In this document: positions 6,547 through 58,984 of the stretch, piece by piece
Numbering within the stretch: the first letter of the stretch is position 1
Layout: each line of letters begins with the position of its first letter
Source: a virus
Length of the DNA stretch: 64,000 bases
Direction: 5' to 3' (one strand)
Virus record (IMG/VR): IMGVR_UViG_3300022921_000002
Location: 124,001-188,000 of that record
The notes under the pieces: generated by a model
The model's database searches: none
Seen by the model: the letters and a program-made list of their open reading frames with translations, nothing else
What the model was told of the DNA's origin: nothing
Position numbers and translations under genes: made by a program

Positions 6547-6575
6547 TTGACAATACCACAGAGTTGCGATATATT
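6547..6575 (+). promoter_or_regulatory. sigma70-type promoter for gp55-47-46
   Basis: TTGACA (6547-6552), 17-base spacer, TATATT (6570-6575), 31 bases upstream of the gp55 ATG. Confidence 0.75.
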
Positions 6576-6606
6576 AAAACTAATCTCAGTAAAGGAGGAT
6601 ACCGTA

Positions 6607-7119
6607 ATGGGAAAACCTACGAAACCTCGTAAGAAAAATTACGTCAACAATAAAGACTTATATGAAGCATTGATTGCATACAAAGGACGGATTAAAGAAG
6701 CAGAGGACAGTGGTGATGAAATTCCACGTGTTCCTGACTATATCGGCAAATGCATTTATCAGATCGCAACACGATTGGCAACTAAACCAAATTTTAGTGG
6801 CTATTCGTATAAGGAAGATATGATTAGTGACGGTATTGAGAATTGTCTACAATATATTAATAACTTTAATCCTGAGAAATCTCAAAACCCGTTTGCTTAC
6901 TTCACACAAATTATTTGGTTCGCATTTCTACGCCGTATTCAAAAAGAAAAGAAGCAAATGTATATTCGTTTTAAATCATCTCAACAAATGCTTGCATCAG
7001 GTGGTACCTATACAGGTGAAGATGTAACTCTTAACTTAACAACAAATGCTGATTATATGAACTCGTTCGTTCAGGATTTTGAAGATAAGTTGGCTAAGGA
7101 TAAAGCGAAAAAGAAATGA
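6607..7119 (+). CDS. 55: late-transcription sigma factor gp55
   Basis: Minimal sigma factor that directs host RNA polymerase to TATAAATA late promoters. I chose ATG 6607 because AAAGGAGG sits just upstream; an in-frame start at 6547 would lie inside the promoter. The 170-residue protein opens with YVNNKDLYEALI, as in T4 (YVNNKEL), then NFSGYSYKEDMISDGIENC and NPFAYFTQIIWFAFLRRIQKEKKQ, which match the sigma region 2-like core of gp55. It works with gp33, encoded at 22633. Confidence 0.93.
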   Translation: MGKPTKPRKKNYVNNKDLYEALIAYKGRIKEAEDSGDEIPRVPDYIGKCIYQIATRLATKPNFSGYSYKEDMISDGIENCLQYINNFNPEKSQNPFAYFTQIIWFAFLRRIQKEKKQMYIRFKSSQQMLASGGTYTGEDVTLNLTTNADYMNSFVQDFEDKLAKDKAKKK

Positions 7120-10652: not shown

Positions 10653-13187
10653 ATGTCTAATTTTTACACCTCAGTTGAGCGTTTCGGTAATACCATCCTA
10701 TGGCGCGGTTATGAAAACGGTAAACGGTTTGAACGCAAAGTAAAGTATCAACCAACTCTGTATATCACCACACAACAAAAAGAATCAGAATACCAGTCAC
10801 TGTTTACAAAGGCACCAATCAAGCCAATGTTGCAAGATAGTATGAAAGATGCCAAGGAGTTCACCGAAAAGTATAAAGGTGTTCACGGACTTGAGATATG
10901 TGGTAATACAAATTATGTTTCACAATTTATTCAAGAAAAGTATCCTAATGAAATTAAATTTGATCCAACGCTCATTAACATTGTCAGTTTTGATATTGAG
11001 GTGGATATTGCTGATGGGTATCCTAACATGGATACTGCGGACAAGGAAATCACTTCCATCGCATATAAATCTTCAAAGTCAAACACATATCACTTGCTCG
11101 GCCGAAAAGAATATGATAAGCACAAGACCTTAACTAATATTGATACTGATGATATTCTGTGGATGCAGTTTGATACCGAAGAAGCATTACTCAAACGGTT
11201 TATTAGTATATGGGTAAATGACTATCCTGATATTGTTACAGGTTGGAATGTTGAATTCTTTGACATTCAATATATTATTACTCGTATGAAAAACCTATTA
11301 GGTGAAGAAAAGGTTAAAGAATTGTCACCATGGCGTTCGGTCCGACCGTATTCCCGCGAGTTCTTTGGTAAAGATCAAGGATCATATCGTATCAGCGGAA
11401 TTACCATTATCGACTATATGGATGCCTTCAAGAAATTTGGTTACAAGTACGGCCCACAAGAATCATGGAAACTTGACCATATTGCATACGTTGTGCTTGG
11501 TGAAAAGAAAATGGATTACTCTGAATACGGTAACCTAACTAATTTGTATGAGCAAAATCCTCAACTATATCTCGACTATAACCTTAAAGATACTTGGCTG
11601 ATCCAACGGTTTGAAGATGAAACATCATTACTTGAATTGGTTATGACCGTTGCATATGGCGGCGGTGTTAACTATGGTGATGCATTTGGTACAGTTGGTA
11701 TTTGGGAAACAACCTTGTATCGTAAACTGATTAAAGAAAAACGTATCCCACCAATCAAAGGTGGTCCAGGTCAACGTGCTGGAGAATTGGTTGGCGGTTA
11801 TGTAAAAGATCCTAGAGTTGGTATGCACCCATGGATTGTATCATTTGATTTGAACTCACTGTATCCGCACTTGATGCTACAATATAATATGTCACCTGAA
11901 ACCTACCTTGAGGATGAGCGTGAAAACGTATCACAGGATATGGTATTGAGTGGTAAATATCAATCAAGCCGTGAGAATATGTCCGTTGCTGCCAATGGTG
12001 CTTGTTTTACTAATGAGCATATCGGCATTATTCCTGAAATCATTAATGAGTATTATGGTAATCGTAAGATCATCAAAAAAGAAATGCTCGGTGTTGAACA
12101 AGAACTCGAGAATGCAACCGATCCTGCTATCAAAGAACAATTGAAACGTAAAGCAAACCAATTACATAACTCACAGATGGCTATCAAAATTAGTATGAAC
12201 TCACTATATGGTGCTATGGCAAATGTTTACTTCCTATATTATATTAACGATATGGCTGAAGCAATTACAACCTCAGGTCAATTGTCTATTCGGTATGCTC
12301 AAAAGTCAGTAAACAATTATCTCAACAAGATCCTTAAAACTGATACTGACTATATCGTATATATTGATACCGACTCAATCTATGTTGATATGGCACCGAT
12401 TGTAGAATCAGCATTTGGTACTGTTGATGTTGACCGCAAGAAAGGTGAGGAGTTCCTCGACAAAGTTTGCCAAATGAAAATTGAACCAGTGATTGATGCT
12501 GGTTATGAAGAACTCGCAAAGAAGATGGGCGCCTATCGCCAAGCAATGGGTATGAAACGAGAAAAGATTACTGATAAGTCGGTGTTTATTGCTAAGAAAC
12601 GGTACATTATGAATACACTGAATTCCGAAGGTGTTCACTATGAAGAGCCAAAGATTTCAGTTACAGGTTTAGAATCAGTACGCTCATCAACACCTGAGGT
12701 ATGCCGTGAGAAACTCAAAAAATCATTCAAAGTTATTATGAATGAAGGTGAAGAAGCAATGCAGCAGTTCATCCAGGATTTCCGTGAAGAATTCCGAACA
12801 CTTAATCCTGAAGACATCGGACGTAACAGCGGTACCGATAACATTGATAAGTACAAAGTAAAAGGTTCTTATAAGAAAGGTTGTCCAATGCACGTTCGTG
12901 GTTGTATTCTATACAACAATCATCTCAAACAGCTAGGACTAAATAAACGGTATGACTCAATTGCTGGTGGTGACAAGATCAAGTTTGTTTACTTGAAAAT
13001 GCCAAATCCTATCCGTGAAAACATTATTTCGTTTCCAGGAGCATTACCTAAAGAATTTGAGTTGACAAACTACATTGACTATGATAAACAATTTGAAAAG
13101 GTGTTCCTCAGTCCGATTGGATCAATCCTTGATGCGATTGGTTGGAATGCTGAAAAAATTAACACACTTGAAGATTTCTTTGGATAA
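10653..13187 (+). CDS. 43: family B DNA polymerase gp43
   Basis: Replicative DNA polymerase with proofreading, 844 residues and uninterrupted. Exonuclease motif I is FDIEVDIADG (about 112), exonuclease motifs II and III follow (GWNVEFFDIQY; YLDYNLKDTWL), motif A is SFDLNSLYPHLM (about 398), motif B includes KISMNSLYGAMAN, and motif C is YIDTDSIYVD (about 570). No intein or split is present, unlike some related phages. Confidence 0.97.
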   Translation: MSNFYTSVERFGNTILWRGYENGKRFERKVKYQPTLYITTQQKESEYQSLFTKAPIKPMLQDSMKDAKEFTEKYKGVHGLEICGNTNYVSQFIQEKYPNEIKFDPTLINIVSFDIEVDIADGYPNMDTADKEITSIAYKSSKSNTYHLLGRKEYDKHKTLTNIDTDDILWMQFDTEEALLKRFISIWVNDYPDIVTGWNVEFFDIQYIITRMKNLLGEEKVKELSPWRSVRPYSREFFGKDQGSYRISGITIIDYMDAFKKFGYKYGPQESWKLDHIAYVVLGEKKMDYSEYGNLTNLYEQNPQLYLDYNLKDTWLIQRFEDETSLLELVMTVAYGGGVNYGDAFGTVGIWETTLYRKLIKEKRIPPIKGGPGQRAGELVGGYVKDPRVGMHPWIVSFDLNSLYPHLMLQYNMSPETYLEDERENVSQDMVLSGKYQSSRENMSVAANGACFTNEHIGIIPEIINEYYGNRKIIKKEMLGVEQELENATDPAIKEQLKRKANQLHNSQMAIKISMNSLYGAMANVYFLYYINDMAEAITTSGQLSIRYAQKSVNNYLNKILKTDTDYIVYIDTDSIYVDMAPIVESAFGTVDVDRKKGEEFLDKVCQMKIEPVIDAGYEELAKKMGAYRQAMGMKREKITDKSVFIAKKRYIMNTLNSEGVHYEEPKISVTGLESVRSSTPEVCREKLKKSFKVIMNEGEEAMQQFIQDFREEFRTLNPEDIGRNSGTDNIDKYKVKGSYKKGCPMHVRGCILYNNHLKQLGLNKRYDSIAGGDKIKFVYLKMPNPIRENIISFPGALPKEFELTNYIDYDKQFEKVFLSPIGSILDAIGWNAEKINTLEDFFG

Positions 13188-18727: not shown

Positions 18728-18771
18728 CTGTATCATTTAAGTCACTAAAAATAATCAAAAATTTTATTTGG

Positions 18772-18801
18772 TTGACATTTCCGCAAAATAGTTTATATAT
18801 A
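18772..18801 (+). promoter_or_regulatory. sigma70-type promoter for the tmRNA
   Basis: TTGACA (18772-18777), 18-base spacer, TATATA (18796-18801), 10 bases before the first stem of the tmRNA acceptor piece. Confidence 0.65.
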
Positions 18802-18810
18802 TCTAGTAAT

Positions 18811-19077
18811 CGTTGATACAAGTCAACGCATGGATCGGACCGCGGGGCAGTACCGCGCTGCTCCACCATAAACACATTGACAATAATTTTAGTGTGTTTA
18901 TGATGGGGCAGAACAAGGATCGACGGACGTGAAGAGATGAGAGTAGATTACCGTGTTGGCCTACGTTATTAAGCCAAAAATTTTAATTGCAAATGACAAT
19001 TATAAACCATCTGGATTTGCCCTAGCGGCGTAATCAAAGGGGGTTGGCCACTTACCTAGCAACAGAAAATGTGGCAT
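18811..19077 (+). ncRNA. ssrA: circularly permuted two-piece tmRNA (alphaproteobacterial type)
   Basis: The acceptor piece comes first: stem CGTTGA/TCAACG (18811-18826), T-stem CGCGG/CCGCG (18841-18857), then CTGCTCC-ACCA ending at 18868. A 36-base intervening segment (18869-18904) folds into an 8-bp hairpin, TAAACACA/TGTGTTTA. The coding piece begins GGGGCAG (18905-18911), which pairs with CTGCTCC to give a 7-bp acceptor stem with G3:U70, the alanine identity pair. GGATCGACGG (18917-18926) matches the conserved tmRNA 5' region. The tag frame at 18989-19033 starts at GCA and encodes ANDNYKPSGFALAA plus stop. An H-type pseudoknot follows: GTTG 19043-19046 with CAAC 19060-19063, and GCCAC 19047-19051 with GTGGC 19071-19075. 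Exact mature ends are not determined. It should rescue stalled ribosomes together with host SmpB. Confidence 0.92.
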
Positions 19078-19105
19078 ATTTTTAACAAACAATAAAGGAA
19101 GTAAT

Positions 19106-19900
19106 ATGACCAAATTTCTATCAACAACAGCCCTTGTATTTGCGGGTACAGCGGCATTTGCAGATCAAGCAACAACACCAGCAGTCACACTTAGTGGCGA
19201 AATTGAAACAGTAATCGCTGAAGGTCTGAATGATAAATGGGGTGCAACTACTTCATTCGGTTTTGATGGCGCTTTGACAAACGGCGCTGCAACAGGTTCA
19301 ATGGAATTTGTTGTTGACTCTGATAATGATCTAACACTTGACGGTTGGTCAATGGGTACTAATGTTGCAGGAGTTGCAATGTCTTTTGGTGACCAAGGTA
19401 ACATTTGGTTTGACACAGAATCTGGTGCGACAATTGAAGAACCAACAATGGCAGATGAAAGCTTGTCTCTCGGTGTAGGTAGTGCAACCGTTGCGTTGGC
19501 ATTCACTGATATTGGTACGGACGTAACTGATATTGCTAACGTACAAGGTGCATACGGTCTGAACGTTGGCATTGCTAATATAACTGCAGCAGGTGATTAC
19601 AACATTGATTCCGAAGAATGGGTAGTTGGTGGCCGCGCTGATACAGCAGGAATGCTTGACAGTGTTCGTCTAGGTGGTGCCGCAACATACGGTTCTGCGT
19701 CAGAGAACATTGCTTTTGAAGCAGATGCTACTGTAATGGGCCTGACTGCATATGTTGCAGGTGACCAGGATGATCTTGCACAAAATATCGGTGGTTCATA
19801 TACATATGACCTAGGTGGTATTGATCTAAAAGGTGCTGTTGACTATGACATTGATGCAGAAACATATGCACCATCTGTAACAGCGACATTCGCATTTTAA
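19106..19900 (+). CDS. small outer-membrane porin-like protein
   Basis: A 264-residue protein with a clear signal peptide (hydrophobic run, cleavage after AAFA) and alternating short hydrophobic/polar strands throughout, ending in the C-terminal phenylalanine (SVTATFAF) that marks outer-membrane beta-barrels for the BAM machinery. It resembles short Gram-negative porins of marine alphaproteobacteria. As a phage gene it could replace or mask a host receptor or alter nutrient permeability. It follows the tmRNA, shares its likely promoter region, and ends in a strong terminator. Confidence 0.78.
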   Translation: MTKFLSTTALVFAGTAAFADQATTPAVTLSGEIETVIAEGLNDKWGATTSFGFDGALTNGAATGSMEFVVDSDNDLTLDGWSMGTNVAGVAMSFGDQGNIWFDTESGATIEEPTMADESLSLGVGSATVALAFTDIGTDVTDIANVQGAYGLNVGIANITAAGDYNIDSEEWVVGGRADTAGMLDSVRLGGAATYGSASENIAFEADATVMGLTAYVAGDQDDLAQNIGGSYTYDLGGIDLKGAVDYDIDAETYAPSVTATFAF

Positions 19901-19959: not shown

Positions 19960-19967
19960 TATAAATA
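19960..19967 (+). promoter_or_regulatory. T4-type late promoter box TATAAATA
   Basis: Exact TATAAATA right after the porin terminator and 29 bases before the heme oxygenase start, suggesting late expression of that gene. Confidence 0.7.
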
Positions 19968-19996: not shown

Positions 19997-20536
19997 ATGA
20001 GCAACGAGTTGAAAAAATTAACGTGGGATCATCATCAAGCAGCAGAACGGCGGGCATTTGCTCGTAAGCTTTTAAGAGGCGAGTTATCGGACTACGAATA
20101 TTATATATTCCTGGTCTGCCAATGGCACAATTATACACCACTTGAAAATGCTGTTATTATTCCACCTAATCTCAATGCTATATATCGAGCGGACCGTATC
20201 AAAGCTGATATGCAGGAACTCGAAAAACTACACGGATTTGGCCACCCATCGGCATTACCAACATCCGTAAAAGAATACCAAAACCATATTGGTCAACTTA
20301 CCGAATCTGAAAACAATCATGGTTTGCTTGCCCATATGTATACTAGGCATTTTGGTGAACTACACGGTGGACAAATAATCAAAAAGAAAGCACCGGGCTC
20401 AGGTACTATGTATGAGTTTGAAGGTGATAAAGAATTGCTTATCTCAGAGTTTAGAAAACTTCTTGACGATAGCATGGCACCCGAGGCAAAAAAGTGTTTT
20501 GAATTTGCCTCAAAATTATTTGATGAATTGTCATAA
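19997..20536 (+). CDS. ho1: heme oxygenase (biliverdin-producing)
   Basis: Opens heme to biliverdin, CO and iron, using ferredoxin or another reductant. The N-terminal LTWDHHQAAERRAF (residues 8-21) contains the axial-His region of HO1 proteins. HMYTRHFGELHGGQIIKKK (about 114-132) corresponds to the conserved HxYxRxLGxLxGGQ distal helix. At 179 residues it is slightly shorter than cellular HO1 (about 210-240), as phage versions often are. GGAGG lies upstream of the ATG. A bilin reductase follows after one small gene, so biliverdin is probably reduced further. Confidence 0.88.
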   Translation: MSNELKKLTWDHHQAAERRAFARKLLRGELSDYEYYIFLVCQWHNYTPLENAVIIPPNLNAIYRADRIKADMQELEKLHGFGHPSALPTSVKEYQNHIGQLTESENNHGLLAHMYTRHFGELHGGQIIKKKAPGSGTMYEFEGDKELLISEFRKLLDDSMAPEAKKCFEFASKLFDELS

Positions 20537-20606: not shown

Positions 20607-20774
20607 ATGCAAGATAACGCATTAGAAGACATTAACCTTAAACCTAAGAAACGTGCAGATCGACTTTCAAGAAGTATCAGCGCAAGGCGAAGGCGGAAAA
20701 TGTTGAAACAAGTAAGAGAAACGCGCTTACTAAACGCATATGCCAAATTGAAAAGGGCACGCAGAAAGAAATGA
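20607..20774 (+). CDS. small very basic protein between heme oxygenase and bilin reductase
   Basis: A 55-residue protein with the strong site AAGGAGG and ATG at 20607. It is extremely rich in Arg and Lys (ISARRRRKMLKQVRE; LKRARRKK at the end), so nucleic-acid binding is plausible. Its stop overlaps the ATG of the bilin reductase (ATGA), implying coupled translation. Family unknown. Confidence 0.65.
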   Translation: MQDNALEDINLKPKKRADRLSRSISARRRRKMLKQVRETRLLNAYAKLKRARRKK

Positions 20775-21454
20775 CACCACTATGGGATCGGCTTAACAGC
20801 TATGCTGAATACATATCAAATTCATTTGATAATAAGTTTAAGCGATATGATAACCAAAAATATACTGATGATATGCACTTTCCTGGATGGACTGATACCT
20901 TTTGGAATTCAGATCAAATCTACAAAGCGCATTTGAAAACCATTGTACCAGAAAACGGTAAAGGTTTATGGTTGATGCACGTTAACGTATTTCCAAAAGC
21001 AAATATTGAATTACCTATTCTTGGGTTTGATATTGTTGCCGGTCCCAAAAAGATTACAGGATCATTTATGGACTTTTCACCATTGTTAGGTTTTGCACAT
21101 CCTTACCATGATTATATGGAACGGCGAGTTGCTAACCTAGAATGGAATAAACCACGTGAATTACCACCGTGGGCAAAAGAAATCTTTTCAAGTGATATGC
21201 TTGCGGTTGGTAATATTAATACTGATGATGAGCTTAATCAGTTTATACAAGTGACAACTGATTTGGTAGATTATTATCTCGACAACCTTGATGATAACAC
21301 ATTTTACAGTCGGCGTGAAACAACACCTCTATTAAATAAGTATTGTCAAAATCAAAAATTAAATCCACATTTGCACCGATCCATTTTAGCAATGGGTATA
21401 TCCGAAGAAGATAAAGATGAATATGTAAATAACGTGCTATTCGAGGAGATTTAA
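20771..21454 (+). CDS. pcyX: ferredoxin-dependent bilin reductase, PcyX/PebS-like
   Basis: A 227-residue member of the FDBR family (PcyA, PebA, PebB, PebS, PcyX). Family features seen: ANIELPILGFDIVAGPKK, then GSFMDFSPLLG carrying the candidate catalytic Asp, PWAKEIFSSDMLAVG, and the C-terminal hallmark KDEYVNNVLFEEI. The length fits phage PebS/PcyX (about 230). The enzyme would reduce biliverdin to a bilin such as phycoerythrobilin with ferredoxin electrons. PcyX is known from uncultured marine phage sequences paired with heme oxygenase, which is the arrangement here. Which member of the family and which product are inferences. Confidence 0.82.
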   Translation: MTPLWDRLNSYAEYISNSFDNKFKRYDNQKYTDDMHFPGWTDTFWNSDQIYKAHLKTIVPENGKGLWLMHVNVFPKANIELPILGFDIVAGPKKITGSFMDFSPLLGFAHPYHDYMERRVANLEWNKPRELPPWAKEIFSSDMLAVGNINTDDELNQFIQVTTDLVDYYLDNLDDNTFYSRRETTPLLNKYCQNQKLNPHLHRSILAMGISEEDKDEYVNNVLFEEI

Positions 21455-22114
21455 ATGGCGTTTTTAGTACATCCCTTGCCACCAGTAAACGTATATGTTA
21501 AAATGGAATATCTATACGATTTGGATTTCGCTGACGACCGAGGATGGGGTAACTTAACTCCTGGCATTTGGATTAGTGTTAAATCAACTCAATCAAAAGC
21601 GTTATATTTTGAAACACTTCTTACAGACTATGGAGCATTATATGATAAATTACCTATATCAGCTTTTGTTTGGAAAGAAGACTTCGATCTTGAAGACCAG
21701 CTTCCACTTGATGTTCTTCAGCTTTGGGATTGTTTTGATTACGACCTTACCGTTATCCAAAAGCCAATCTTGTGTAGGTGTGAGTTTTTTGGAAAAGACA
21801 AAAAGATGCACGCAGGAGAATACGAATTTACCATAGATAATGCTCACAGAGATAACGCATATCTCGATACTAATTTTTCAGAACACGATCCAGAGCACAA
21901 ATCATTTAATGTTATTAGACTTGATAATGGTCAATTCGCTGCTCAACCAAACAACAGAGTTATATGGAGAGACAGTTCATTAACACCTGCTAATTTGAAA
22001 CGACCTGATTTTAAAGTGTGTACTCAAAACTACGCAGTAGAAGATCAACCCAAATGGTCGGTTGGCCACACTGATGAATGGCAATATAAAACAAAAGAGG
22101 AAGAAAACGGTTGA
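21455..22114 (+). CDS. conserved hypothetical protein following the bilin reductase (219 aa)
   Basis: The ATG abuts the bilin reductase stop with GAGGAG upstream, so the two are co-translated. It has ISVKSTQSKALYFETLL, KLPISAFVWK, LDVLQLWDCFDYDLTV and QFAAQPNNRVIWRD. The Trp/Asp-rich core suggests a compact beta-rich phage protein. It feels like a family shared by marine T4-like phages, but I cannot name a function or prove a role in bilin use. Confidence 0.75.
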   Translation: MAFLVHPLPPVNVYVKMEYLYDLDFADDRGWGNLTPGIWISVKSTQSKALYFETLLTDYGALYDKLPISAFVWKEDFDLEDQLPLDVLQLWDCFDYDLTVIQKPILCRCEFFGKDKKMHAGEYEFTIDNAHRDNAYLDTNFSEHDPEHKSFNVIRLDNGQFAAQPNNRVIWRDSSLTPANLKRPDFKVCTQNYAVEDQPKWSVGHTDEWQYKTKEEENG

Positions 22115-45178: not shown

Positions 45179-45847
45179 ATGAAAACCAGACTTATTGGAT
45201 ATACTCAACCTGTAGAAGGTGAAATCATTGGACTTGATAATGTTCAAGATTTGATTGCATACTGTGCTCGAGTATCAAACCCGAGTAATCAATTGAACCA
45301 AGAAACGGCACCTAAGTTGCTATCCTATCTTGCAAAGCATGCTCATTGGTCACCATTTGAAATGGCAAATGCGACATTAGAAATTGAAACAACGCGGGAT
45401 ATTGCGCGTCAGATGTTACGTCACCGTTCGTTTGCCTTTCAAGAATTTAGTCAACGATACGCCGATCCGAGAGATATGGATAACACTTTTGTAATGCGTG
45501 AAGCACGTCTACAGGATCTCAAAAACCGTCAGAACAGCATTGACTCAGATGATGAACGGTTGCAAATGATGTGGGAATCAAAGCAAGGTGAAGTTATCCG
45601 TGCTGCAAAGGATGCATACAATTGGGCCATTGAAAACGGTATTGCAAAAGAACAGGCACGTGCTGTATTACCCGAAGGTAATACCATTTCTCGTTTGTAT
45701 ATGCAAGGTTCTATTCGTTCATGGATCCATTATATTGAACTGCGTTCAGCAAACGGAACTCAAAAAGAACATATGGAAATTGCCCGTGAAGTTGCTTGCG
45801 CTATATCCAAAATATTTCCAGTGATTGATACTTATGTCCAAAAATAA
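45179..45847 (+). CDS. thyX: flavin-dependent thymidylate synthase ThyX
   Basis: Makes dTMP from dUMP with FAD and methylene-THF. The ThyX motif RHRSFAFQEFSQRY (RHRxxSxxxxSxR, about 84-97) is complete. About 222 residues. ATG 45179 is preceded by GAGG. It is adjacent to the ribonucleotide reductase genes, forming a dNTP supply block. The 151-base gap after it (45848-45998) holds no gene. Confidence 0.95.
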   Translation: MKTRLIGYTQPVEGEIIGLDNVQDLIAYCARVSNPSNQLNQETAPKLLSYLAKHAHWSPFEMANATLEIETTRDIARQMLRHRSFAFQEFSQRYADPRDMDNTFVMREARLQDLKNRQNSIDSDDERLQMMWESKQGEVIRAAKDAYNWAIENGIAKEQARAVLPEGNTISRLYMQGSIRSWIHYIELRSANGTQKEHMEIAREVACAISKIFPVIDTYVQK

Positions 45848-45998
45848 ATATTTTTATATACCGGAAAATGGTTTCTGGAATGATAAATATGAGTACCATG
45901 GCAATCTATGGTAAGAATAATCCCTATTAGCACAAAATATGCCACATCCTCAAGGTGCGGTTTTTCTGTCCTTAACACATACGAAAGAGGTTCACCGA

Positions 45999-47273
45999 AT
46001 GTTTGACTCCCGAGCACTACCTAAAGATATAGTAAATTACGTTATTAAACGTGACGGATCAACAAAGAGTTTTGATTCAAGTAAGATTGCATATGCGGTT
46101 AATAATGCTATGAAAGCAATTGGTATTCGAGCAAAATCCTTACCTGGTGAAATTGCATTTGAAGTTACAAAAAGTATTAACGAAGATGCTGAGGATGTTA
46201 TTGTTGATGTTGATACAGTACACAAAACAGTTGAGAACGTGATGATGGATATGGGATTACACGACTTAGCTCGTGAGTATATCCTTTTTCGTTTTAACAA
46301 CCAACCTGACATTTTCCGTAAACGTACAAACCTTAAACCATATGAGTATCCGCAACTCGTTGAGTATACTGATGCTATCCGACATTCATATTGGGTACAT
46401 ACCGAGTTTAATTATTCGTCCGATATCCAGGATATGAAAGTGCGTATGACTGAGTCTGAGGTTGATATTGTTAAAAAAGCAATGCTTGCTATCTCACAAA
46501 TTGAGGTACAGGTAAAAACATTTTGGGCAAAGATTGGTGATAAATTTCCTAAGCCTGAAGTACAAGGTGTTGGTGTAACATTTGGTGAATCAGAAGTACG
46601 CCATGCCGATGCCTATTCTAATCTCATTGAAATTATGGGTCTCAATGATGAATTTGAAAAGGTTGTAGAAATTCCTGCAATGAAAAAACGCATTGCCTAT
46701 CTTGAGCAATCAATTGCAGCACCTGTTGATAATAAGGATTACTTCCATAAGATTATCCTATTCTCAATGTTTGTTGAAAACGTATCACTGTTTTCACAAT
46801 TTCTAATTATGATGGCGTTTAATAAACATAGAAATTTACTTAAAGGTATTTCTAATGCTGTTGAGGCAACATCAAAAGAAGAAGATATCCATGCTCGTTT
46901 CGGATTTGAGCTTGTAAACATTATCCGTGAAGAAAATCCTGATTGGTTTGACAAAGATAGTATTGCTGAAGTCAACCGCCTGTGCCGTGATGCATTTAAA
47001 GCAGAGTCTGCAATTGTTGATTGGATCTATGGTGATGCCGATCTCGATTTTCTACCTAAAGCGACTGTCAAAGAATTCCTAAAGCATCGTTTCAATCAAT
47101 CATTAAAGGCAATTGATATGAAGCCTTTATATGATGTTGACGAGGAAGCCGTAAAGAGTACTGATTGGTTTGTTGAAGAAATTTTGAGTACAAAGAATAT
47201 TGACTTCTTTGTTAAACGCTCAACTGCATATTCAAAGAAAACCAAGGCATTCACCGAAGATGATTTATTTTAA
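45999..47273 (+). CDS. nrdB: class I ribonucleotide reductase beta subunit with N-terminal ATP-cone
   Basis: Radical-generating subunit, about 424 residues from ATG 45999 (GAAAGAGG upstream). Residues about 10-100 form an ATP-cone (YVIKRDGSTKSFDSSKI at its start), normally on NrdA. The NrdB core follows: first-pair ligands GESEVRHADAYSNL (E-x-x-H with a Tyr four residues after the His, in the radical position) and VENVSLFSQF plus EEDIHARFGFE for the second half. ATP-cones on NrdB are known in a minority of lineages, where they control activity through beta oligomerisation. Confidence 0.92.
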   Translation: MFDSRALPKDIVNYVIKRDGSTKSFDSSKIAYAVNNAMKAIGIRAKSLPGEIAFEVTKSINEDAEDVIVDVDTVHKTVENVMMDMGLHDLAREYILFRFNNQPDIFRKRTNLKPYEYPQLVEYTDAIRHSYWVHTEFNYSSDIQDMKVRMTESEVDIVKKAMLAISQIEVQVKTFWAKIGDKFPKPEVQGVGVTFGESEVRHADAYSNLIEIMGLNDEFEKVVEIPAMKKRIAYLEQSIAAPVDNKDYFHKIILFSMFVENVSLFSQFLIMMAFNKHRNLLKGISNAVEATSKEEDIHARFGFELVNIIREENPDWFDKDSIAEVNRLCRDAFKAESAIVDWIYGDADLDFLPKATVKEFLKHRFNQSLKAIDMKPLYDVDEEAVKSTDWFVEEILSTKNIDFFVKRSTAYSKKTKAFTEDDLF

Positions 47274-47285
47274 AAGGAAAACACT

Positions 47286-48941
47286 ATGAGAGATTTTTAT
47301 TGGCTAAACGAAGACTCAAGGACATTTTTATCAAGAGGTTATTTGAGTAAAGGTGAAACAGCTAAGCAACGAATTAGAGATATTGCTGATAAAGCTGAAG
47401 AGTACTTGGATATCAAAGGATTTAGTGACAAGTTTTATGGGTATATGAGTAAAGGTTATTATTCATTAGCGTCACCTGTGTGGGCAAATTATGGTAAAGA
47501 ACGTGGTTTGCCTGTATCTTGTTTTGGATCATATATTGATGATAGTATGCAATCAATTTTATTTGGGCATGCTGAAAATGGAATGCTAATGAAAAACGGT
47601 GGTGGCACGTCAGGTTACTTTGGTGCTGTCCGTGGGCGAGGTGCTGAAATCACAGATCAAGGTGAGTCGTCAGGTTCAGTACATTTTATGCAGATGTATG
47701 ATACATTGGCATCAGTTGTATCACAAGGTTCTGTCCGTCGTGGTTTCTTTGCAGCATATCAAGATATTGAACACCCCGATGCTGATGAGTTCCTTGACAT
47801 TGCAACAGAAGGTAATCCTATTCAAGGGTTAACAACAGGCATTACTGTTTCCGATAAGTTCATTAAAGAAATGAAAGATGGTGATCCACAGAAACGCGCA
47901 TTGTGGGCAAAAGTTTTACAGCGCCGTTCTGAAGTTGGTTTTCCATATATTCTGTATTCTGATAATGTAAACAATGGCCGTCCTGATGTTTATAAAGATA
48001 AGGATATGAAAGTACACGCATCTAATATGTGTGCTGAAATCGCATTACCGTCAAGCGCCGAAGAAACATTTACTTGTGTTCTATCATCACTAAATTTATT
48101 ACATTGGGATGAGATTAAAGAAACCGATGCAATTGAAACTTTGGTTATGTTCCTTGATACTGTATGTCAAGAATTCATTAATAAGACTGAAGGTCAAATT
48201 TATATGAAACGTGCTCGTGACTTTGCTATGAACCATCGGGCATTAGGTGCAGGTGTACTAGGTTGGCATTCCTATTTGCAATCAAAGATGATTGCTTTTG
48301 AATCAAAAGAAGCAGCACAGCTCAATGTTGAAATTGCTAAAACATTCCATGATAGATCATACGCGGCATCTGCTGAACTTGCGGACAAACTTGGTGAACC
48401 ACCTTTGCTAAAAGGTTATGGCCGTCGTAATTCAACAACAATGGCAATTGCTCCGACTAAATCATCAAGCTTTATTTTAGGCCAAGTATCACAATCAATT
48501 GAACCTGAGTTTAGTAACTGTTATGTTAAAGACTTGGCAAAAATGAAAGTGACAATTAAGAACCCGTATCTTTTGAAACTGTTAAAGAAAAAAGATCAGG
48601 ATAAATCAGAGGTTTGGGAATCAATTCGTAATGCTGATGGATCAGTACAACATTTGATCTTTTTGTCTGAGGAAGAAAAAGAAGTATTCAAAACATTCTC
48701 AGAAATCAATCCATACACAATTATTGACCAGGCTGCTATTCGTCAACAGTATATTGACCAATCACAAAGTTTAAACTTGATGCTTGATCCTGACCTTTCA
48801 GTTAAAGAAATCAATGCGTTGTACCTATATGCTCATGAGATGGGTGTTAAAAGTTTGTATTATAGTTATTCTATGTCAGCAGCACAATCATTAACACGGA
48901 AACGAGTTTCATCAATGGAGTGCGCAGCCTGCGAAGCATAA
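47286..48941 (+). CDS. nrdA: class I ribonucleotide reductase alpha subunit, short form lacking ATP-cone
   Basis: Catalytic subunit, 551 residues versus about 760 in E. coli. The N-terminal ATP-cone is absent; the protein begins near SRTFLSRGYL. Active-site residues are present: PVSCFGSYI, ASNMCAEIALPS (N-x-C-x-E), FTCVLSSLNL, and the YYSYSMS tyrosines, with a C-terminal ECAACEA redox pair. The missing cone is carried by NrdB instead. Glutaredoxin at 61657 may re-reduce it. Confidence 0.94.
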   Translation: MRDFYWLNEDSRTFLSRGYLSKGETAKQRIRDIADKAEEYLDIKGFSDKFYGYMSKGYYSLASPVWANYGKERGLPVSCFGSYIDDSMQSILFGHAENGMLMKNGGGTSGYFGAVRGRGAEITDQGESSGSVHFMQMYDTLASVVSQGSVRRGFFAAYQDIEHPDADEFLDIATEGNPIQGLTTGITVSDKFIKEMKDGDPQKRALWAKVLQRRSEVGFPYILYSDNVNNGRPDVYKDKDMKVHASNMCAEIALPSSAEETFTCVLSSLNLLHWDEIKETDAIETLVMFLDTVCQEFINKTEGQIYMKRARDFAMNHRALGAGVLGWHSYLQSKMIAFESKEAAQLNVEIAKTFHDRSYAASAELADKLGEPPLLKGYGRRNSTTMAIAPTKSSSFILGQVSQSIEPEFSNCYVKDLAKMKVTIKNPYLLKLLKKKDQDKSEVWESIRNADGSVQHLIFLSEEEKEVFKTFSEINPYTIIDQAAIRQQYIDQSQSLNLMLDPDLSVKEINALYLYAHEMGVKSLYYSYSMSAAQSLTRKRVSSMECAACEA

Positions 48942-48944
48942 ATT

Positions 48945-50141
48945 ATGGAATATATGAAATTTTTTAAAGACACGGTTGCATCATTTAGAAGCGACGGAAG
49001 ATATCGAGTATTTAATGATATTATCCGTGAAAAGGGTCAGTTTCCTAGGGCTATTTGGTATGGGAAATATGCACCAAAGAATATTGTTAATTGGTGCTCA
49101 AATGATTATTTGGGTATGGGTCAAAACCAATATGTCATAGATGCTATGCATACTGCATTAGATCAAACAGGTTCAGGTTCCGGCGGTACGAGAAATATCG
49201 GCGGAACCTCAGTTTTCCATGTAACACTTGAACGTGAAATTGCAACACTACACCAACGTGAAAACGCATTACTGTTTAGTAGTGCATACGTTGCCAATGA
49301 GTGGGCTCTAATTGCTCTTTCACGCATCATCCCAAACATTTGCTTTATATCTGATAATAAAAACCATGCCTCAATCATTATGGGAGTAAAGCACAGCCGT
49401 GCACCTAAAATGATTTTTAAGCATAATGATATGGCAGATCTCGAGAAATGTTTAAAGGCAGCAAAAAAGAATAAGCAAATTCCTTGCGTATTGTTTGAGT
49501 CCGTATATTCAATGGACGGTGATGTTGCGCCTATTAAAGAAATCGTTGAGTTATCACATAAATATAACGCAATGACTTATATAGATGAAGTCCATGCGGT
49601 TGGTTTGTATGGTCCTACAGGTGCAGGTTATTGTGAACATTTAAATTTATATTCCGATGATATTGATATTATCAACGGCACGTTAGGAAAAGCATATGGG
49701 GTACAAGGCGGGTATATTTCAGGTAAGCAAGAAGTTATTGATGCGATTAGATTGGTTGCATCAGGGTTCATATTCACCACCTCCATGTCACCTGTTATAT
49801 GTGCTGGGGCACTCGCCAGTATAAAATATCTCAAAGACCATTCTTGTCTAAGAGATCAACAACAAGAACGAGTAAAAAAGCTCAGACAAATGTTAGAAGA
49901 AGCAGGATTGAATATACATCCTAATGCTTGTACTCACATTATCCCAGTAATGATTAATGATGCCTTTAAATGTAAAGAAGCATCGGATAGATTACTAAAC
50001 GAATTCGGTATATACATTCAACCGATTAATTCACCAACAGTAGAGGCAGGTACCGAAAGGTTACGTATTGCTCCTACACCATACCATACCGATTTGATGA
50101 TGGTGGAATTAGTCGAAGCGCTGAAAGAAGTATTGAAATGA
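48945..50141 (+). CDS. hemA: 5-aminolevulinate synthase
   Basis: Condenses glycine and succinyl-CoA to ALA (Shemin pathway), first step of heme synthesis in alphaproteobacteria. The 398-residue PLP enzyme has [45 protein letters not shown], and [13 protein letters not shown] with the PLP lysine. The near-diagnostic [14 protein letters not shown] (versus the related KBL/BioF) supports ALAS. It begins 3 bases after nrdA, so it is in the nucleotide operon. The start MEYMKFF fits cellular ALAS starts. The phage also encodes heme oxygenase and bilin reductase (19997-21454). Confidence 0.9.
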
Positions 50142-50182
50142 ATCAATTAGAAAATGCCTTCTTCAGTAAAAAGGAAAAAACT

Positions 50183-50602
50183 ATGAGTAAAGTAAAAAAG
50201 GCATTTTGGTTTTGCCTAGGAATTATTTTGGTAGGTGTGGCATATCTTGGTGTATTACTACCCGGTCTACCTTGGTCAACACCAATTCTAGGTGCAACAT
50301 TCTGTTTTGCCAAATCAAGTGACAGACTGCATAATTGGATTATGAATCATCCACGGTTCGGTCCATTTGTTAAAAACTGGGGTACATACCGTGTATATCC
50401 AACAGCGGCTAAATGGTTGATGGTTGCCGTAATGAGTACATCCTTGGCATTTATGTGGTTTGGTACAGGAAACGAAAAAGCAACATTATATCTGTTTATT
50501 ACTTTTGCCTTAATTGTTACGTGGGCGTGGCGTTATCCAGGATCACAAGAAATTGCCGAAAAAAGAATTGCCGAAGGTAAAAAGATTGGTTGGCTAAAGT
50601 AA
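50183..50602 (+). CDS. DUF454 (YbaN-like) inner-membrane protein
   Basis: I chose ATG 50183, preceded by AAAAAGGA, over an in-frame ATG at 50138 overlapping the hemA stop. The protein (about 139 residues) has three to four membrane helices. GVLLPGLPWSTPILGATFCFAKSSDRLHNW with HPRFGPFVKNW is the DUF454 signature. Function of this family is unknown. Location directly after hemA is notable. Confidence 0.8.
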   Translation: MSKVKKAFWFCLGIILVGVAYLGVLLPGLPWSTPILGATFCFAKSSDRLHNWIMNHPRFGPFVKNWGTYRVYPTAAKWLMVAVMSTSLAFMWFGTGNEKATLYLFITFALIVTWAWRYPGSQEIAEKRIAEGKKIGWLK

Positions 50603-57448: not shown

Positions 57449-57621
57449 TGTTTAAATTGTTTAAATCTAATACAGACGCAGAAATTGATTTTGGGCAAGA
57501 TGTATCAATGGTACCACAGATTGAAATAGTACCTGAGCCATCATTATCAGATATGCTCAAATTGGTTGAAGAACGTCTTGACCGTATTGAAAGTAAAATT
57601 GACAAACTACTCAATGAGTAA
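57448..57621 (+). CDS. small hypothetical protein (57 aa)
   Basis: ATG at the previous stop (TAATG). MFKLFKSNTDAEIDFG, then an acidic C-terminal coiled coil (SDMLKLVEERLDRIESKIDK). The next gene starts inside it. Confidence 0.58.
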   Translation: MFKLFKSNTDAEIDFGQDVSMVPQIEIVPEPSLSDMLKLVEERLDRIESKIDKLLNE

Positions 57622-58984
57622 GGTTTGGTTAGGTATAAGTGAAGGCTTCCATGATGCCGGTGTAAGTATGATTTGGAACGGGCAAATATTGTCGGCAACT
57701 CATGCTGAACGGTTTAGTCGTAAAAAGAATGACCGTTGGGTTCATCCTATGCAGTATCCGCAAGGTATTAATAACGGATATGATAAGATTGCTTTTTATG
57801 AAAAACCTTGGTTGAAAACAACGCGTCAGCTATGGGCAGGTCAAGGTTTAAAACCAAAACGTACTAAATACAACAAGTCATTCCATCACCATGAGTCTCA
57901 TGCTGCCGCAGGGTTTTATACTTCAAAGTTTGATTCCTGTAATATTTTAGTTATTGATGCAATTGGTGAATGGGATACTGTTTCCGTTTGGAAAGCATGG
58001 ACGAAGAACGGTATACCAAAAATGATTAAATTAAAATCATATAAGTATCCGTTTTCAGTGGGTTTGTTTTATTCAGCAATTACTAAATCAATTAAATTGA
58101 AGCCACAGGAAGATGAATATATTACCATGGGTATGGCAGCATACGGCGAGCCAATTTATACCGATGAGCTCAAAGAAATAATGCTACACAAAAATTGCCA
58201 TAAAGGAATAGCGCAATTTCAATATGCAAAAGATGAAGATATTGCGGCATCAGCACAAAAGGTTGTTGAAGATTTCATTATTGAAATGGTAAAAGATTAT
58301 TGCCCACACGAAAACCTGATTATGATGGGTGGTGTGGCATTGAATTGTGTTGCGAATACAAAGGTTGCTGAACTTGGTAAAAACATTTGGATTATGCCAA
58401 ATCCTGGTGATTGTGGATCTTCATTAGGTGCTGCGGCACTAGGTTATGGAAAGAAATTGATATGGGAAGATCCATATCTTGGAACGGAGATTAAAAATGA
58501 AGTACAAATTAGTGGCGTTGTTCAGCATCTTATTGATAATTCCTATTGCGGTATTGCGAATGGCCGCGCTGAGTTTGGCCCTCGTGCCCTTGGCAATCGT
58601 AGCCTTATCGCTGACCCTCGACGAGATGTTAAAGATACCGTTAACGAAATTAAACGTAGACAAAAATTTCGACCCTTTGCACCTGCGATCCTGGAAGAAT
58701 TTGCTAATGAATATTTCCAAGGACCAATGAATGAGTATATGCAATTTGTGGCGCAAGCCAAACACGACTATAAATCTGTAACCCACGTTGATGGTTCAGC
58801 ACGTGTTCAAATTGTAAAACCAAACTGTAAATCTATATTACGCCCAATACTTGAGGAATGGTATGAAAAGACAGGTTGTCCAATGTTATTGAATACGAGT
58901 TTAAATATTAAAGGTCAACCGATGGTTGATACTTGGGAACACGCATTAGAATTTGAAAAGAAATATAATGTTAAAGTCTTCTAA
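57614..58984 (+). CDS. carbamoyltransferase (NodU/CmcH-like)
   Basis: About 456 residues from ATG 57614, which overlaps the preceding stop region. N-terminal Kae1-like domain: GISEGFHDAGVSMI, HHESHAAAGFYTSKF and LVIDAIGEWDTVS. Central MGGVALNCVANTK. C-terminal NGRAEFGPRALGNRSLIADP and KFRPFAPAI, then NTSLNIKGQPMV. These are the diagnostic motifs. It transfers carbamoyl from carbamoyl phosphate to a hydroxyl, on a sugar or, in some phages, a hypermodified base. The acceptor is unknown; no hydroxymethylase is in view. Confidence 0.92.
   Translation: MSKVWLGISEGFHDAGVSMIWNGQILSATHAERFSRKKNDRWVHPMQYPQGINNGYDKIAFYEKPWLKTTRQLWAGQGLKPKRTKYNKSFHHHESHAAAGFYTSKFDSCNILVIDAIGEWDTVSVWKAWTKNGIPKMIKLKSYKYPFSVGLFYSAITKSIKLKPQEDEYITMGMAAYGEPIYTDELKEIMLHKNCHKGIAQFQYAKDEDIAASAQKVVEDFIIEMVKDYCPHENLIMMGGVALNCVANTKVAELGKNIWIMPNPGDCGSSLGAAALGYGKKLIWEDPYLGTEIKNEVQISGVVQHLIDNSYCGIANGRAEFGPRALGNRSLIADPRRDVKDTVNEIKRRQKFRPFAPAILEEFANEYFQGPMNEYMQFVAQAKHDYKSVTHVDGSARVQIVKPNCKSILRPILEEWYEKTGCPMLLNTSLNIKGQPMVDTWEHALEFEKKYNVKVF

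Follow-up and report, generated by a model that had tools for sequence, protein, structure and literature searches.

A predicted phage 5-aminolevulinate synthase between ribonucleotide reductase and DUF454 genes, and late promoters at heme oxygenase

A 221-kb, T4-like marine phage carries, directly behind its genes for ribonucleotide reductase (RNR), a gene that by every available sequence test encodes an ordinary 5-aminolevulinate synthase (ALAS). The gene adds one more to the phage valaS genes already described in 2024 (Wegner et al. 2024; PMC11480375), and in that respect the headline is not new; the new details are the fixed gene neighbours of phage ALAS and a late control of the heme-degrading genes that ALAS does not share. 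We think it fairly probable that this is a working Shemin-pathway ALAS whose product, ALA, would be taken to heme by host enzymes and followed later in infection by a gp55-driven breakdown of heme. The identity of the enzyme, its intact active site, the operon, the linkages, the promoter contrast and the lack of ALA dehydratase and ferrochelatase are all read from sequence, while whatever the phage gains from them is inference.

According to the running text of PMC11480375, ALAS genes are found in marine and freshwater phage contigs, both with and without hemO/pcyX, and occur singly, in three-gene cassettes or in 'broken cassettes' in which hemO and pcyA/X stand together with alaS nearby. One such enzyme, from a freshwater (peat-bog) phage, has proven activity, making ALA and complementing an ALA auxotroph, and both kinds of role for phage ALAS are already proposed there. 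The window gene shares with the valaS genes of that text the Shemin ALAS, the marine or freshwater setting, the viral clade and the intact PLP lysine, as well as the frequent presence nearby of hemO and a ferredoxin-dependent bilin reductase (FDBR). In contrast, its running text mentions neither the neighbouring RNR and DUF454 genes nor the late-promoter difference, and ribonucleotide, nrd, DUF454 and thyX have 0 occurrences there. The same text describes a hemO–pcyA–alaS island in Bradyrhizobium ORS278 that brings the same three enzyme types together within one genome but, unlike the phage arrangement, is bacterial and contiguous and adjoins a phytochrome gene.

The window, that is, the whole stretch of 64,000 nucleotides analysed, corresponds to positions 124001–188000 of a virus record of 221,447 bases. 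Its features discussed here are the following.

6547–7119, plus strand: late sigma factor gp55 (phrog_234, 207 bits)
19960–19967, plus strand: T4-type late promoter TATAAATA (the core sequence of T4 late promoters), 29 bp upstream of where heme oxygenase starts
19997–20536, plus strand: heme oxygenase (PF01126, 79 bits, cut-off 23)
20771–21454, plus strand: ferredoxin-dependent bilin reductase of the PcyX/PcyA branch, with Lys56 (PF05996, 65 bits)
45179–45847, plus strand: thyX, for a flavin-dependent thymidylate synthase, preceding the RNR genes (PF02511, 146 bits)
45939–47273, plus strand: RNR small subunit (nrdB) with an N-terminal ATP cone (PF00268 and PF03477)
47286–48941, plus strand: RNR large subunit (nrdA; PF02867, 313 bits; phrog_84, 489 bits)
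48945–50141, plus strand: 5-aminolevulinate synthase (valaS), 398 aa, PLP lysine K249 (TIGR01821, alignment to solved ALAS, invariant catalytic residues)
50138–50602, plus strand: DUF454 (YbaN-type) small membrane protein (PF04304, 94 bits, cut-off 35)

Identity of the enzyme

The reading frame is complete, with an ATG start, no internal stops and 398 codons for amino acids. Among NCBIfam profiles it matches TIGR01821 (EC 2.3.1.37) at 559.3 bits against a cut-off of 338.6, whereas the models for glycine C-acetyltransferase (320.4 bits, cut-off 460) and BioF (318.9 bits, cut-off 426.5) stay below theirs, and no KBL, BioF or serine palmitoyltransferase profile cut-off is reached. The closest solved structures are likewise bacterial ALAS (7x98, 432 bits; 2bwn from R. 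capsulatus, 404 bits), with KBL at ∼217 bits. A preliminary description of this DNA had preferred ALAS over KBL/BioF, and these matches bear it out; the three sequence motifs that it quoted all occur in the translation.

The match to bacterial ALAS (HemA) is full-length, with identical catalytic and substrate residues. In R. capsulatus numbering, assigned by alignment, R21, T83, N85, I86, H142, D214, H217, K248, T365 and R374 are all kept, and these include the PLP lysine and residues of the succinyl-CoA/glycine site (R21, T83, N85, K248, T365); the catalytic and substrate residues are invariant across the ∼115 viral homologues and 80 bacterial ALAS compared. In cyclizing ALAS (cALAS) serine replaces both Thr83 and Thr365 (PMC4525017), and the window enzyme retains threonine at 83 and 365. 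It is therefore most improbable that the gene encodes a paralogue (KBL, AONS or a cyclizing ALAS) with no role in heme supply: the common fold family does produce cross-matches of 275–320 bits, but the ALAS cut-off is well exceeded while those of KBL and BioF are all missed, the two threonines are in place, and the genes checked showed no recognisable amide synthase or CoA-ligase partner.

Position 342, linked to 'heme feedback', is Lys rather than His in the window ALAS, and the protein ends at residue 398, before Cys400. An argument from the loss of His342 to release from heme feedback was considered and dropped on the bacterial control, since 74 of the 80 bacterial ALAS compared also lack this histidine (just 6/80 have it), so its absence does not discriminate and is no sign of escape from heme inhibition.

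A scan of viral contigs yielded 55 ALAS loci at 62–100 per cent identity. In a tree built from ALAS of 56 viral and 80 bacterial rows, a set that does not include Pelagibacter ALAS, every viral ALAS falls on one side of a single branch (SH-aLRT 100, stem 0.88), and the window ALAS groups with viral and not bacterial ALAS, in the phage valaS clade. This viral clade is separate from its bacterial counterparts and sits on a long stem; the closest bacterial proteins found share ∼50–56 per cent identity with the window ALAS. Across 50,697 phage records, the search for ALAS in isolated phages gave only matches below 38 per cent identity, KBL/BioF-like where annotated.

The ribonucleotide reductase neighbourhood

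As had been noted earlier, ALAS lies inside the RNR operon: nrdA stops at 48941 and ALAS begins at 48945, leaving a gap of 3 nt. Most contigs syntenic with the window have RNR genes followed by ALAS, and the order RNR–ALAS–DUF454 is conserved across them. The RNR genes themselves vary, comprising an ATP-cone NrdB and then NrdA in the window, a 765-aa NrdA and then a 375-aa NrdB in L007, and a 595-aa NrdA and then a glutaredoxin-like/NrdB fusion in L040, and they represent at least three class I lineages.

ALAS is also found in contexts without RNR (L364–L380, including L377; L051; L055), and because of this its RNR neighbourhood is a conserved slot and no requirement. There is nearly an even chance that the position is incidental, ALAS being a hitch-hiking gene in a metabolic island and functionally untied to RNR. 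Those other contexts point that way, as do the ∼35 kb that separate ALAS from RNR in G079; that the gene order has outlasted the exchange of one RNR lineage for another argues the other way. A tie through B12, with tetrapyrrole supplied for a cobalamin-dependent (class II) RNR, would agree with the RNR–ALAS order of most syntenic contigs but was rejected as highly improbable, because all three RNR types examined (window, L007, L040) have class I small subunits.

A recurrent DUF454 neighbour

The start of the DUF454 gene overlaps the ALAS stop codon (ATGA). Viral relatives of DUF454 number at least 572, and among the 80 viral loci that match this DUF454 group best, 68 have an ALAS gene in the 8-kb flank, on the DUF454 strand and at a median gap of 18 bp. 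When a divergent freshwater DUF454 served as query, ALAS was present in 20/80 loci, always on the opposite strand and with many contigs short, and with a third query in 47 of 68 newly fetched loci; the three query sets overlap, and their counts are not additive. The arrangement varies between lineages. A methyltransferase-like ORF, ALAS and DUF454 follow one another in L377; DUF454, ALAS and bilin reductase form a contiguous cassette in L359 and L360; and ALAS, DUF454 and heme oxygenase are all present but far apart in G079 (a 201-kb record). In L055 ALAS and DUF454 are convergent, and the gene between them (11183–12062) is ferritin-like (Dps-type).

The link between ALAS and DUF454 appears strong but not exclusive, because some viral DUF454 relatives occur without ALAS (e.g., L159–L161 and L361). 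Where RNR is followed by DUF454 in L160 and L191, replacement of ALAS by C5-pathway genes was considered and rejected: the intervening ORFs, among them one for a cell-wall hydrolase and one for a protein that is acyltransferase-like but unrelated, contain no heme gene.

On the bacterial side, no DUF454 gene was found within 8 kb of hemA in 80 alphaproteobacterial-type ALAS loci, and a single one of the alphaproteobacterial DUF454 regions inspected, from Agrobacterium, looked heme-related, its DUF454 gene adjoining what we read as putative hemin-transport genes. A structure model of the protein (pTM 0.51) gave no significant match in the PDB. Several reports hint at a tie between the family and iron or heme: ybaN (DUF454) is a predicted Fur target in E. 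coli (PMC3224099), DUF454 is upregulated in Avibacterium under iron starvation (PMC7970244), and DUF454 co-occurs with T11SS genes, as does heme oxygenase (PMC12282271). The repeated pairing with ALAS gives a starting point for work on this widespread family of membrane proteins, which has no assigned function.

Heme oxygenase and bilin reductase

Profile matches confirm both genes, which lie 27.5–28.9 kb upstream of ALAS. All seven related ALAS records extending 27 kb or more upstream contain heme oxygenase (G000, G005, G079, G081, G082, G084, G085); its low frequency in a first count of ALAS loci (2/47) reflects short contigs. G080 keeps the bilin reductase at the edge of the record (L107). 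Heme oxygenase is present and ALAS absent in G077 (183 kb), and the ALAS contigs L046, L051 and L055, which belong to other phage lineages, have no heme oxygenase on their sequence. Neither ALA dehydratase nor ferrochelatase was found in the phage, so the middle of the pathway must be run by host enzymes.

The nearest sequence relatives of the window reductase are PcyX of marine phages and the FDBR of pelagiphage Mosig, and it shares with them an adjacent heme oxygenase; among structures it matches PcyX (5owg) at 138 bits and PcyA at 58 bits. It differs from PcyX in that Lys56 stands at the position of the catalytic Asp55, which is also that of the catalytic Glu76 of PcyA, and neither acid is present. 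Mosig, at ∼33 per cent identity, has Asp at that position. The lysine occurs in 81 of the 81 viral sequences compared, and the second Asp and the His are kept. In PcyA, Glu76 is needed for 18-vinyl reduction (PMC10151467). Because the product cannot be named from the sequence, the label PcyX is unsafe for the window enzyme and is best dropped.

Two reading frames flank this pair of genes. Just before heme oxygenase (19106–19900) lies a 264-aa ORF whose product looks porin-like and begins much like a signal peptide, and for which there was no Pfam or PHROG match. Right after the bilin reductase, the ORF at 21455–22114 matches phrog_3704 ('ferredoxin') at 328 bits and has no Pfam match; no ferredoxin cysteine motif was seen in it, and the PHROG name may be wrong.

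Late promoters and timing

In the stretches tested, TATAAATA occurs at 29 sites, 20 of which sit 15–60 bp before an ORF, compared with 6 per cent for permuted octamers; this placement is not due to chance. The window has eight sites, all on the plus strand, as are most of its genes. Of 41 distinct viral regions upstream of heme oxygenase, 27 carry the octamer, as against 1/51 for ALAS, 0/41 for bilin reductase and 0/48 for DUF454, and the related loci in which it stands just upstream of ALAS (L019–L021) represent at most two distinct sequences. From 38862 to the end of the window there is none, so the RNR–ALAS–DUF454 block is without one nearby.

The upstream sequences of heme oxygenase thus give good support to its late expression. 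ALAS may be expressed early or in the middle phase, although lack of a late promoter is no proof of early expression. Entry to and exit from the heme pathway would probably be expressed at different times, because late promoters precede heme oxygenase so much more often than ALAS.

These results leave only part of the preliminary description's account of heme standing. The cassette that it placed 28 kb upstream does contain heme oxygenase and a bilin reductase, but the name PcyX was only partly right, Asp55 being absent. Its view that the phage controls both the entry and the exit of the heme pathway holds as gene content in the seven far-reaching records. As to whether contigs with heme oxygenase also carry ALAS, the same seven records have both, and G077 has heme oxygenase alone. 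That heme flux is boosted to feed heme oxygenase was not borne out, given the late promoters at heme oxygenase and none at ALAS, and given the three contigs on whose sequence ALAS occurs and heme oxygenase does not.

It is conceivable, but rather doubtful, that heme made through phage ALAS is mainly consumed by the heme oxygenase and bilin reductase of the phage, yielding bilin or free iron. Such a role would suit the presence of heme oxygenase in every far-reaching record, the contiguous cassettes of L359 and L360 and the three-gene cassettes reported in the text of PMC11480375. It sits poorly with late promoters found at heme oxygenase and not at ALAS in this lineage, and with the occurrence of each gene in the other's absence: heme oxygenase in G077, and ALAS, as far as the contig sequences go, in L046, L051 and L055, so that ALAS has no need of heme oxygenase.

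Proposed role

Under the reading that we favour, of synthesis by way of the host and later breakdown, the phage gene would encode a functional Shemin-pathway ALAS of the valaS clade, and host enzymes would carry its ALA to heme and other tetrapyrroles. The supply of heme could in this way be kept up as host transcription declines, and the DUF454 membrane protein, co-translated with ALAS, probably acts in the same process, as their linkage suggests. Later, gp55-dependent transcription would switch on heme oxygenase and bilin reductase, which would convert heme to biliverdin, iron and some reduced bilin.

A fuller version is offered only tentatively. It would make DUF454 an ALAS/heme partner kept by several phage lineages in varied arrangements, join early ALA and heme synthesis with RNR to late gp55-driven breakdown, and have the Lys-bearing reductase form a product that is neither PEB nor PCB. 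Viral control of heme supply is confirmed as widespread among aquatic phages, and the frame of gene order and promoters makes the story of viral heme supply testable.

Carrier phage and probable host

The T4-like genes of the record include those for DNA polymerase, helicases, SbcC/D-like subunits, UvsX/UvsY, gp59, SSB and gp55, and the closest relatives of its DNA polymerase are cyanophage T4-like polymerases (∼45 per cent). The phage also encodes a permuted tmRNA of alphaproteobacterial type (18768–19124, with the alpha_tmRNA match of 107 bits at 18768–19076), because of which an alphaproteobacterial host is likely, a tmRNA of this type suggesting the host class without proving it. Alphaproteobacterial hosts make ALA by an ALAS of their own, according to the running text of PMC11480375, and the phage gene would therefore add to the host route rather than replace it.

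The tag predicted for the phage tmRNA is ANDNYKPSGFALAA. In the G000 record, which has a phage-encoded gp55, TATAAATA lies 15–60 bp before many ORFs. Positions 57566–58984 of the window encode a Nol-like carbamoyltransferase (phrog_1601, 294 bits).
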